Source of the DNA: Thermocatellispora tengchongensis
GTDB lineage: Bacteria; Actinomycetota; Actinomycetes; Streptosporangiales; Streptosporangiaceae
DNA length: 64,000 bases
Direction of reading: 5' to 3'
NCBI RefSeq assembly: GCF_014202315.1
Contig: NZ_JACHGN010000004.1
Coordinates: 186,001-250,000 of the forward strand
Below the pieces are notes generated by a model. The model did not search any database. It was not told the DNA's origin and worked only from the letters and a program-made list of their open reading frames with translations. Each line of letters opens with the position of its first letter. The first letter of the stretch is position 1. Both the position numbers and the translations under genes were made by a program. This document shows, piece by piece, positions 43,316 to 47,405 of the stretch.

Positions 43316-43985
43316 TCAGTTGATGCCGTGCCGCTGCTCGACCACGGCTCGGTAATTTCTCGTGATGCCCGCAATCGCGCCGGCTTTGTTCTCGTCGCGG
43401 CCGACGGCAATGGCGCGTTCCGCGTCGTCCATATCGCGGTTGGCATGGACGATTGCCGTGGTGGCGGGGCGGCGCGCCGCCTCGTAACGTCGCAGGGCGG
43501 CCGGGGTGTCGCCCGGGGCCGCCAGTTCGGCGGCGAGGACGGCGGCGTCCAGAATGGCCTGCGAGGCGCCGTTGGCGCCGATCGGGTACATCAGGTGGGC
43601 GCCATCGCCCAGCAGGGTGACCCGGCCGCGGCCCCAGGAGGGCAGGGGGTCGCGGTCGACCATCGGTGTGGATGGAGTACTGCGGGCAGGGGTGCCCGGC
43701 CGCGATCCCCCGGGGCTCGGCCCACAGCACCCGGCCGCGGTAGTCGAGGTAGCGGTGCTCGCGCGTGGGGATGCCGGTGGCCGCGATCGCCTCGCCCAGC
43801 CCGAGGGCGGTCAGCTCGGCGATGGCGGCGGGCTGGATGTTGATCCCCACCCCGAGCGGCCGGATCTCGTCGGCGGCCTCCAGCACGATGGCGCCGATGC
43901 CACGGGCGTGCAGGGCGAGGGCCGCGGTGAGGCCCCCGATGCCCGCGCCGGCGATCACGATGTCAGCGGTGTTGTCGGTGCTCAT
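43316..43985 (-). pseudogene. FAD monooxygenase (PhzS-like) with large internal deletion and frameshift
   Basis: The N-terminal part (43985 to about 43665) has the FAD motif [21 protein letters not shown] and [14 protein letters not shown], ending at CPQYSIHT. It then passes, in another frame, directly into the C-terminal FAD segment [38 protein letters not shown]. About 170 codons that lie between these blocks in PhzS-type hydroxylases are missing. The total is about 223 codons against roughly 400, so it cannot be functional. In phenazine clusters such enzymes hydroxylate the ring. Confidence 0.85.
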
Positions 43986-44075
43986 GGAGGGTGTGCTCCC
44001 TGCGCGTCTGGGGGCGGGCCGCCGGCCGCGCGGTGCCCCGCCGGCGTGCGGCCGGCGGGGCGGATGCCGTGGCGG

Positions 44076-44402
44076 TCAGGCGTGGTGGACGGATGCGACG
44101 GAGTACACGCCGGGGCCGGGGGTGCCCAGCTCGGCGACCTTCTTGGCGAACGCCTGAGCCTCGGGGTCGCCCATCACGGCCTGGAGGTCCTCCGGGCTGC
44201 GCCACTGGGCGTAGTTGATGACCCGCTTGCCGTCCTTGCCGGCGAGGATGTTGACCGAGATGAAGCCCGGCCGCTGCCGCATCACCTTTTCCGTGCCCTC
44301 GTTCAGGACGGCGATGAGCTCCTGCTGCCTCTCCGGGTCGACGTCGATGACATTGATGAAAGTGACGAGCTGGTCGTCGGCGCGAATCACGGTTTCACTC
44401 AT
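44076..44402 (-). CDS. Antibiotic biosynthesis monooxygenase (ABM) domain protein
   Basis: 108 aa, one ferredoxin-like ABM barrel: LVTFINVIDVDPERQQELIAVLNEGTEKVMRQRPGFISVNILAG...VINYAQWRSPEDLQAVMGD. Such cofactor-free enzymes oxidise aromatic rings, but many are of unknown function. ATG 44402 is the start that fits the family length. It lies between the broken monooxygenase and phzE and appears intact. Confidence 0.88.
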   Translation of the reverse strand: MSETVIRADDQLVTFINVIDVDPERQQELIAVLNEGTEKVMRQRPGFISVNILAGKDGKRVINYAQWRSPEDLQAVMGDPEAQAFAKKVAELGTPGPGVYSVASVHHA

Positions 44403-44579
44403 GGGCCCAACATTAACGAGAATAGATGCGATAAACCAGTTTTTTAGTTGGTCGCACACCCTGTCAGTTGCACACCCCATGCCTTTACTTTGCATGTCGG
44501 AGCGTGCCGTTGAATATGCTTGAAGAGGACGATTCGGACGAGTGCCGAATCGTCCTTCCCGCTTTGTTCCCGGCGGCGG

Positions 44580-46370
44580 TCAGCCGCCGTTCATGCCGAA
44601 TCCCTCGTGGTCGGCCGCGGCCACCTCGGCCAGCTTCTCGCGGTAGGACCGCAGCCCCGCGAAGTAGAACATCGCCCGGGCCGTTCTGGGTGAGCACGGA
44701 CTCGGCGTGGAACTGCAGGGAGGAGAACCACGGGCCGTGCAGCGCGTGCACCTCGCCGGTCGCCGGGTCGCGGCAGATCCTCACGGCGCCGACGCCGCCG
44801 ATCTCGGCGCCGTCCAGCTCGGAGCGGGCCGCGAAGGTGTTGTAGAACCCGACGCGCTCGCGCACGCCGAACAGGTCGATCTCCTTCTGCAGGCCCTGGT
44901 TGGGCACGTCCTTGCGGCGCATCCGGAACCCGAGCCTGACGCACAGGACCTGGTGGCTCAGGCAGACCGCGAGGAACGGCCGGCGTTCGGCCAGCAGGGC
45001 ATCCACGGCCGCGCGCAGGTAGGCGATCCTGGGGTGCCGGGCGTCGCGAGGATCGCCGGGTCCCGGTCCGAGCACGACGAGGTCGTAGCCGTCGAAGGAG
45101 ACGGCCTCGCCGTACCTGCGCACGGTCACGGACATGTCCAGCGCGCGCAGTTGGTGGTCGAGCCTCGAGGTGAAGGTGTCCTCGGCGTCGATGATCAGCG
45201 TCTCGCGGCCGGCCAGCCGGGGGAGGCCGGCGTACGCCCGGTGGCCGAGCCCAGCCAGAAGCCGGCGATGGTGGCGTTGCGCCGCTCCAGCGCGTCGCGC
45301 ACCTCGGGGTGCGCGTCGAGCCGCCCGGCCTCGCCGGTTCTCAGGGCCGAGAGCAGCCCTGCCGCCTTCGCGCTGGTCTCGGCGACCTCCGAGAGCGGGT
45401 CGGAGTGGCGTACGAGCGTGGCGCCGACGCCGATCCTGGCCCGGCCCGCGCTGTCGATGTCGGCGGTGCGGATGAGGATGGAGGAGTCGAGCGTCCACCC
45501 GCCGGAGGCGTCGCGCCCGATGAGGGCGGCGACCCCGCTGTAGTAGCCGCGGCCCTGCGGTTCGTGCCGCCCGATGACCCGGCAGGCGCTCTCCAGCGGG
45601 CTGCCGGTGACGGTCGGCGCGAACATCGTCTCGCGCAGGATGTCGCGAACGTCCCAGCGGCTGTCGCCCTCGATGAAGTACTCCGTGTGCGCGAGCCGCG
45701 CCATCTGCTTCAGCCGCGGTCCCACCACCCGTACGCCGGGCTCGCAGATCCGCGTCATCATCTTCAGCTCCTCGTCCAGGACCATGTAGAGCTCCTCCGA
45801 CTCCTTGCGGTCGGCGAGGAAGCGCATGACGTCGCGCACGGTGGGGCCGGACGGCGGGTAGCGGTAGGTGCCGCTGATCGGGTTCATCGTGACGATGCCG
45901 CCGTGCAGCGTGATGTGCCGTTCAGGGGAGGCGCCGACGAAGGTCCGCGTCCCGGTGTGCACGACGAAGGTCCAGTACGCGCCCGACTCGATCTGGAGCA
46001 GCCGCCGGAAGAAGGCCAGGGCGCTGCGCGGCGTGTAGCCGCCGATGTCGACGACGAACGACCGCTTGATGACGAAGTTCGCGCCCTTGCCCTCGCCGAT
46101 CGCCTCCTTGACCACCCTGCGCACGGTCTCCGCGTAGTCGTCGTCGGCGACGTCGAAGTGCCCCTCCGACACGGCGATGGGGATGTCGGGAATCCGGGTC
46201 AGCGCCTCGGCGACCGGCACCGCACACTGCCCGGTCACGGTCATCGCGATCAGCGGCGCGCCGTCGCCGGCGCAGGAGAAGCCCCGTTCGCGGATCTGCC
46301 GGTACGGGATGATCGCCAGCACCTCGTGGCGCGGCGCCGAGCCGGCCTCGACCCCGGCCGCGAGCCCGGT
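44580..46370 (-). pseudogene. phzE: Phenazine synthase PhzE (ADIC synthase), 5'-truncated with two frameshifts
   Basis: PhzE turns chorismate into 2-amino-2-deoxyisochorismate. The chorismate-binding half reads from SAPRHEVLAIIPYRQI through GANFVIKRSF, NPISGTYRYPPSGPT, DEELKMMTRICEPG and APTVTGSPLESACRVI. The frame is lost at a G5 run (45219-45223); restoring one base gives the amidotransferase half (AGRETLIIDAEDTF, FLAVCLSHQVLC, FHAESVLTQNG). A second shift at CCCGGG (44675-44680) precedes FAGLRSYREKLAEVAAADHE and the stop at 44580. About 60 N-terminal residues are missing. The two single-base shifts could be sequencing errors; the truncation could not. Confidence 0.9.
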
Positions 46371-46863
46371 GCTCCATGATGTCGCTGGCGGCCATGTAGC
46401 AGGTGAGGATGCGCAGCGGGTCGGGCCGCCTGCTGTCGGCCGTCGGCTCCGGGCCGTTCACCAGGTGCCCGCGGTACGCCGGCAGGGTGAGGTCGCCGAC
46501 CTCCTCCACCGGGCTGGAGCGCGGCTTGGCGAACTGCCCGCCGATCCGCCCGGCCCGGACCACCGGCCTGTGGCCGATCATCTTCAGCGCGCCGGCCATG
46601 ACGTCCAGGGCGGCCGTCTTGCGGCTGACGTGTTCCGCGGTGCACTCCTCCGGGTCCTCCGCGCAGTCGCCGGCCTGTACGACCAGGGACCTGCCCTCGG
46701 CGACCTCGGCGAGGGCAGCACGCAGGGTCCGTACGTCCGCCGCCCGTACCAGCGGGGGACGCGAGGCCGGCACCTCCCTGACGCGCTGGACTTGCGAGAC
46801 ATCGCTCCACTCCGGCTGCTGCGGCGCCGTACTCAGCCGGATGCCGGTCATGGTGTCGTCCAC
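46371..46863 (-). pseudogene. phzC: Class II DAHP synthase PhzC, 3'-truncated
   Basis: PhzC feeds the shikimate pathway for phenazines. About 160 N-terminal residues remain of roughly 400: LVVQAGDCAEDPEE, TAALDVMAGALKMIG, VVRAGRIGGQFAKPRSSPVE and DLTLPAYRGHLVNGPEP, ending at ILTCYMAASDIMEH. The following bases already encode phzE in another frame, so the phzC 3' part, anything between and the phzE 5' end were removed together. The GTG at 46863 with GGAGA upstream is the likely start. Confidence 0.88.
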
Positions 46864-46916
46864 GGGTCTCCATTGCTCGAAGGGACGTGCGACATTGCGG
46901 GCGGCCTCGCCCTGGT

Positions 46917-47405
46917 CTAGGTGGGAATCCCTTCGCGCCTGACCTCGGGAACGGGGATGCCGAGCGCGCGGAGCTGCTCGAACGGGTTCATGAACTCCCG
47001 CTGCTGCCTGATCTTCCCGTTCTCCAGCAGGAAGGAGTGGAGGAAGTGGTTGCTGTAGTGGCCCTCGGGATATCCGGGGAAGCGGATGGCGCCCTCGCCG
47101 TCGCACTCCACCCAGAAGAAGTTCGGGTCCTGCGTCTCGAAGATCTGGATGTTCTTCCAGACCCAGTCGGGAAAGCACCGCAGCGACCAGACCGCGTGCT
47201 CGGCCAGGCGGTCCCGGCCGTGGATGGCGATCGGCCGGCCCGTGTCGTTCGTCCAAAGGCCGCCGACGCCGTCCTCGGTGAACAGCAGGTGCCGGCGCAG
47301 GCGATCCCGCCCCCGCGTGTTCACGTATTTTTCCACGGTCGTTCGGTTGATTTTACGGAGCTCGGCTTCCGCCTCATTTCGGGAAGGGTACGTGGTGTGC
47401 GCCAT
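46917..47405 (-). CDS. phzB: Phenazine biosynthesis protein PhzB
   Basis: 162 aa, the usual length. Diagnostic segments are VWKNIQIFETQDPNFFWVECDGEG, GHYSNHFLHSFLLENGKIRQQREFMNPFEQLRALGIPVPEVRREG. PhzB (with PhzA where present) helps condense two aminoketone precursors into the tricyclic phenazine. ATG 47405 has a GGAGG site six bases upstream. It is the first and only intact core phenazine gene of the remnant; phzD, phzF and phzG are not in the window. Confidence 0.94.
   Translation of the reverse strand: MAHTTYPSRNEAEAELRKINRTTVEKYVNTRGRDRLRRHLLFTEDGVGGLWTNDTGRPIAIHGRDRLAEHAVWSLRCFPDWVWKNIQIFETQDPNFFWVECDGEGAIRFPGYPEGHYSNHFLHSFLLENGKIRQQREFMNPFEQLRALGIPVPEVRREGIPT

Follow-up and report, generated by a model that had tools for sequence, protein, structure and literature searches.

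Whether the phenazine biosynthesis (phz) genes of Thermocatellispora tengchongensis form a working cluster or the remains of one is the question raised by a 64,000-nucleotide stretch of its genome (contig NZ_JACHGN010000004.1, positions 186,001 to 250,000), the whole of which is hereafter referred to as the window. The phenazine scaffold is built by PhzC, PhzD, PhzE, PhzF, PhzB, and PhzG. The window locus is very probably a recently inactivated phenazine cluster, the type of which is probably that of iodinin/myxin (1,6-dihydroxyphenazine N-oxide), and, as judged from the sequence, the remaining genes cannot make any phenazine. The phenomenon is an ordinary loss of a gene cluster, of low novelty, and no description of this locus was seen in the literature listings searched. 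An earlier note on this DNA had described a decaying phenazine cluster in an actinobacterium at positions 43316–47405; related genomes, in which the cluster is whole and both its gene order and its neighbours recur, bear out that description, and the remnant is larger than proposed, reaching from 42.4 to 48.6 kb of the window. It lies on the minus strand, except for an AzoR-like gene on the plus strand, and comprises, from 48.6 to 43.3 kb, a regulator, phzB, a 5′ piece of phzC, a startless phzE, an ABM gene, and two pieces of phzS.

The intact relatives were obtained by a scan of genome contigs (genome_contigs) with the phzE piece of the window, which identified at least 557 relatives, and the best 80 loci (L030–L109) were surveyed. 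Among the matches listed, the phzE-piece relatives at the top are Spongiactinospora gelatinilytica (L030; 86% protein identity) and S. rosea (L031; 85%), and the corresponding identities of PhzB are 85 and 83%. The gene order in both Spongiactinospora is regulator-phzB-C-D-E-F-G, followed by a gene for a Baeyer-Villiger-type monooxygenase (BVMO; ~549 amino acids [aa]), the ABM gene, and phzS, and four Microbispora genomes show the same order; an unbroken version of the locus, which the earlier note had proposed to seek in sister genomes, is therefore at hand in both genera. All ten genes are present in 9 of the 80 best loci and stand in the same order on one strand in seven of them (L030, L031, L033, L034, L035, L037, and L044), of which six are unflagged for damage, whereas the frame is changed twice in L044 itself. 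The BVMO gene is found at ≥45% identity in 14 of the 80 loci (one cut by a contig end) and the ABM gene in nine. The ancestral order proposed earlier, phzB-phzC-...-phzE-ABM-monooxygenase, omits phzD, phzF, phzG, and the BVMO gene, all of which can be read directly from the relatives. Order and strand of the uncharacterized Spongiactinospora clusters are those of the window, and the neighbours of the S. rosea cluster are also common to both; the Spongiactinospora clusters are unbroken, whereas the window lacks phzD, phzF, phzG, and the BVMO gene, and its phzC, phzE, and phzS are broken. Judged by these intact loci, the window locus descends from a core phenazine cluster (phzB-G).

Relative to the Spongiactinospora loci, three deletions (D1, D2, and D3) have removed a total of approximately 5.2 kb, in addition to one single-base deletion, all on the minus strand. 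D1 joins phzC at codon ~162 to phzE at codon ~65, with a net loss of 1494 nucleotides (nt) versus both Spongiactinospora loci, and removes the 3′ part of phzC, the entire phzD, and the start of phzE; alignment with the relatives places its junction within 46331–46359. The remaining phzC 5′ fragment (46360–46851, minus strand; ~160 of ~390 codons) covers positions 8–161 of 438 in PF01474 and residues 8–165 of 405 in the solved structure 6bmc, in agreement with the earlier view that phzC ends at ~160 residues. That phzC passes directly into a 5′-truncated phzE, as was also proposed, is true of the window, after ~20 unaligned nt at the junction, but not of the relatives, in which phzD sits between phzC and phzE. 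The phzE gene is split into fragment 1 (45226–46330, minus strand), the chorismate-binding domain (PF00425; 3r74 residues 71–433) without ~65 N-terminal residues, and fragment 2 (44678–45225, minus strand), the glutamine amidotransferase domain (PF00117; 3r74 residues 444–624) without ~13 C-terminal residues. Between the two domains, alignment with four relatives locates the single-base deletion at ~45225/45226, after which the reading frame stops at 45195; both domains of PhzE (2-amino-2-desoxyisochorismate [ADIC] synthase) are there, but they are truncated and do not share one open frame.

The second deletion, D2, with its junction at 44677/44678 by alignment with the relatives, leaves phzE codon ~621 abutting the 3′ end of the BVMO gene (44580–44677, minus strand; the last ~30 codons). 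A total of 3174–3184 nt is lost, comprising the end of phzE, the phzF and phzG genes, and, except for this 3′ end, the BVMO gene, which the earlier note had not seen. The BVMO remnant was recovered by a blind search of the own genome with the BVMO protein of L030, as a weak match (E 8.6e-4, 61%, 31 residues) at G000:C4:230592-230684, i.e., window 44592–44684. Two single-base frameshifts had been proposed in phzE; the one at ~45225/45226 is a genuine 1-nt deletion, and the other is the edge of D2, a second single-base frameshift being ruled out by the alignment together with the BVMO remnant match. D3 (~539 nt) lies inside phzS at 43666–43668 by alignment with the relatives and changes the frame, leaving a 5′ fragment (43668–43985, minus strand; 3c96 residues 5–106) and a 3′ fragment (43316–43666, minus strand; 3c96 residues 291–400). 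PhzS accordingly lacks approximately residues 107–286 (~180 internal residues), the earlier note having put the loss from the PhzS-like monooxygenase at about 170 internal codons; the window has two fragments matching 3c96/2rgj in place of the whole PhzS-type flavin adenine dinucleotide (FAD) monooxygenase of an N-oxide cluster, and the gene is whole in the intact relatives. The insertions at D2 and D3 measure 0–8 nt, and the two sides of these two junctions have at most ~3 bases in common by alignment reading.

The lost genes were sought elsewhere by protein searches of the own genome with phzD, phzF, phzG, and BVMO of L030 as queries. No close copies are found in the assembly, the best matches being 29% for phzD, 33% for phzF, 34% for phzG, and 47% for BVMO, so that the earlier statement that phzD, phzF, and phzG are missing holds assembly-wide; since none of the three is in the locus, it is no longer a functional member of the core phenazine clusters. 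This result also weighs against the possibility that an intact cluster was collapsed or mis-joined in the draft, with an additional base error in phzE. The completeness given for the assembly, 100%, favours a real absence, and its draft state, in 62 contigs, leaves room for such an artefact. As a control of sequence quality, the rpoC and nuo regions were compared with those of G293 (presumably S. rosea), which replaced a synteny control over 400 kb that was too thin. In the housekeeping regions (64 orthologous open reading frames [ORFs], 55,356 aligned nt), 5 of 64 ORFs are flagged, versus 4 of 12 in the phz locus in the same test; upon inspection, four of the five prove to have a mispredicted end, where their stops or frame change fall beyond the Pfam domain, and the fifth is without a known family, so that no lesion is left in 55 kb of housekeeping genes. 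This control makes an assembly fault less likely, although a local one keeps a small probability. Furthermore, the longest exact word common to both sides of each deletion in the relatives (within 40 nt of the breakpoints) is only 5–9 nt, which is too short for the usual assembly mis-join. An artefact is on these grounds quite improbable. Words of this length also led to the rejection of repeat-mediated deletion; a repeat search of the window itself cannot test that mechanism, since only a single copy of the repeat would remain afterwards.

The age of the inactivation was estimated from nonsynonymous changes, split between the window and its sister with four Microbispora as outgroups. Versus L030, the split (window:sister) is 38:61 in the broken genes and 28:47 in the intact ones (regulator, phzB, and ABM; Fisher p 1.0; AzoR not comparable), and versus L031, with AzoR added, it is 36:70 and 50:75, respectively (Fisher p 0.41). 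The surviving parts of the broken genes thus contain no excess of amino-acid changes versus either relative. A neutral period of ~0.01 substitutions/site would add ~20 nonsynonymous changes; in the comparison with L030, 38 changes are observed against 36 expected, with a 95% upper limit of 52, and the neutral time is therefore below roughly 0.01 substitutions/site, whereas synonymous distances to Spongiactinospora are ~0.2–0.8. The absence of excess implies that the damage is either very recent or an assembly fault, and sequence as constrained as that of intact genes is what an artefact would also leave. On the preferred reading of a real inactivation, the cluster would have been under constraint until very recently, and the lesions presumably exist in the living strain. 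The same lack of excess could be expected if the surviving fragments were expressed as new functional parts, e.g., a stand-alone glutamine amidotransferase or chorismate-binding protein, and the frames of the fragments are indeed open, with candidate starts at 46322 and 45498. However, PhzE fragment 1 is without its ~65 N-terminal residues, PhzS is without 180 internal residues, the start of fragment 2 lies within fragment 1 in a different frame, and recency explains the conservation of the fragments; we consider new functional parts exceedingly improbable.

Several points weigh against a recent, real loss of an inherited cluster. No nonsense codon occurs in the 927 surviving codons, and this absence says little because only ~0.5 would be expected at 0.01 substitutions/site. 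Three large deletions with almost no substitutions are slightly odd for slow decay, and the exact joining base of D1 is not fixed by alignment. The lesions are known from the assembly of one strain, no second member of the genus being found among 99 of 341 family genomes listed. Finally, when 400 kb per genome was compared between the window contig and the S. rosea contig, only 10 ORFs matched, eight of them in one ~18-kb block with the cluster; because only two match outside this block, it may be a moved island and not an inherited place. In that comparison, 3 of the 10 ORFs are flagged, namely phzE, phzS, and one of 635 aa that has four stops in the window, versus 0 of 7 in the reverse direction. 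The neighbours, on the other side, speak for the inactivation of a cluster like that of S. rosea: beside the cluster, the window and S. rosea have AzoR, a glyoxalase-family gene, and two genes for sigma factors in common.

The combination of many lesions with little point mutation, and with very short common words at the deletion sides, could reflect a single burst (e.g., error-prone repair or template switching across the operon) that produced all deletions and the base loss and left a resistant non-producer keeping the regulator, ABM, and the reductase; this combined scenario is very doubtful. The alternative in which synthesis was lost and selection keeps the regulator, ABM, and AzoR-like genes for protection against neighbours' phenazines is a possible, though unlikely, explanation. 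These three genes are open while phzC, phzD, phzE, phzF, phzG, BVMO, and phzS are each missing or disrupted, and a self-defence role has been predicted for LaPhzX, an uncharacterized small monooxygenase encoded in the myxin cluster, by the authors who described it (PMC7927275). However, phzB, which is useless alone, is likewise open; the ratio of nonsynonymous to synonymous substitution rates (dN/dS) of ABM, 0.50 versus L030 and 0.48 versus L031, is not low; none of the eight solved matches of the ABM protein bears the name PumA; and open genes are expected without selection because the decay is so recent. If the loss was recent and unselected, the residual open genes would be passengers yet to decay.

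The product of the intact ancestor is best regarded as iodinin-like (a 1,6-dihydroxyphenazine N-oxide). LaPhzS and LaPhzNO1 together make iodinin (PMC7591250), and Streptosporangium sp. DSM 45942 is a reported source of iodinin (PMC8620606); an iodinin-like product is suggested by these reports. In gene content, the intact loci are close to the LaPhz myxin/iodinin cluster of Lysobacter antibioticus, which includes phzB-G, a Baeyer-Villiger-like N-oxidase, PhzS, and a small monooxygenase (PMC7927275); the likeness of the window and its relatives to LaPhz is one of gene content only, and the latter belongs to another phylum and has a methyltransferase, LaPhzM, whereas the window copy is broken. 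In an intact ancestor such as those of Spongiactinospora and Microbispora, PhzC, PhzD, PhzE, PhzF, PhzB, and PhzG would provide the scaffold, PhzS would convert it to hydroxyphenazines, and the Baeyer-Villiger-type, PhzNO1-like enzyme would N-oxidize these, with the ABM protein and the reductase standing beside the pathway; these roles are suggested by the named homologues. In the window lineage, three deletions with little shared breakpoint sequence and one base loss would then have eliminated phzD, phzF, and phzG, reduced the N-oxidase gene to a short remnant, and broken phzC, phzE, and phzS. The intact relative encodes the BVMO, a candidate N-oxidase that is possibly PhzNO1-like, of which the window retains the last ~30 codons; as a point against the N-oxide assignment, the nearest solved homologue of the relative's BVMO is a cyclohexanone monooxygenase.

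The window's PhzB, PhzC, PhzE, and PhzS match solved proteins (3ff0, 6bmc, 3r74, and 3c96, respectively) of Pseudomonas and Burkholderia, as alignment of the translated fragments showed; phzD, phzF, and phzG are missing in comparison with the phz operons of these genera. Of the solved proteins, 3r74 is the Burkholderia PhzE and 3c96/2rgj the P. aeruginosa PhzS, their database names being anthranilate/PABA synthase component I and flavin-containing monooxygenase. The Pseudomonas/Burkholderia phz operons are not known to include a counterpart of the BVMO gene seen in the intact relatives. Genome mining that relied on phzB, phzE, and a PhzS fragment would mistake this strain for a producer of phenazines, and the locus is a clean example of secondary-metabolite loss, in which the intact relatives show exactly what went. 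The intact clusters themselves (regulator-phzBCDEFG-BVMO-ABM-phzS) are more useful, as candidate actinobacterial phenazine N-oxide clusters.

The genes that survive whole agree with the earlier account, in which phzB was intact and the ABM, AzoR-like, and regulator genes were open, as the ORF list and Pfam confirm. The phzB gene (46917–47405, minus strand; 162 aa) encodes a PhzA/B-family protein that matches PF03284 over positions 6–162 of 162 (E 7.9e-86, 285.9 bits) and aligns over residues 6–162 with the solved PhzB2 3ff0. The putative pathway regulator (47509–48591, minus strand) had been called StrR-like, and Pfam supports a helix-turn-helix (HTH_23) only; a counterpart, 62–75% identical, occupies the same place in all seven same-order loci. 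The regulators treated in PMC8910723 are different ones. The ABM-family gene (44076–44402, minus strand; 108 aa; PF03992, 6.9e-12) encodes a protein that matches ActVA-Orf6 1lq9 (7e-9) and is 79–80% identical in Spongiactinospora. The AzoR-like flavodoxin-fold reductase gene (42452–43219, plus strand; PF02525, 2.4e-27) is also found near the phz clusters of L031, L033–L037, and L041. Directly 3′ of the operon lies a 12-bp hairpin (44526–44556, minus strand), a possible terminator without a T run, which the terminator scan did not report and which alignment also places in both Spongiactinospora loci (fold z-score −5.58). Alignments and scans upstream of phzB and the regulator revealed no convincing conserved operator or promoter, and the RNA scans of the window detected one tRNA and nothing else. 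The plasmid collection contains 14 matching records, of which 12 lie over phzE (72–78%), one over phzB, and one, of 48 nt, over AzoR; no relative is found among viral contigs. In the segment that separates the AzoR-like gene from the neighbouring hydrolase (41400–42400), the two minus-strand frames tested have no Pfam match, and the segment may be non-coding or another remnant.

Damage is also seen in other clusters. A phz gene with a changed frame, possibly through sequence error, is present in at least 3 of the 80 other loci, and the window is therefore not alone in showing loss or sequence error in a cluster of this kind; it is, however, the sole one of the 81 tested loci that is flagged in more than two genes. 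In [Actinomadura] parvosata subsp. kistnae (L044), the frame changes are in phzC (6027–7183) and phzF (9683–10545) and represent independent decay or sequence errors, and one frame change each is found in L049 (phzE) and L060 (phzC). In Sphaerimonospora mesophila (L032; 6594–8001) and Sinosporangium siamense (L047; 6462–8001), the search found no phzC, either in the interval from phzB to phzD-phzE or in the rest of the fetched stretch, and these two phz clusters are apparently without their own 3-deoxy-D-arabino-heptulosonate 7-phosphate (DAHP) synthase. At the identity limits used, 54 of the 80 phzE loci are without any of phzB, phzF, and phzG, and most of them have phzC and phzD; they perhaps belong to other chorismate-derived pathways (compare PMC5958127).

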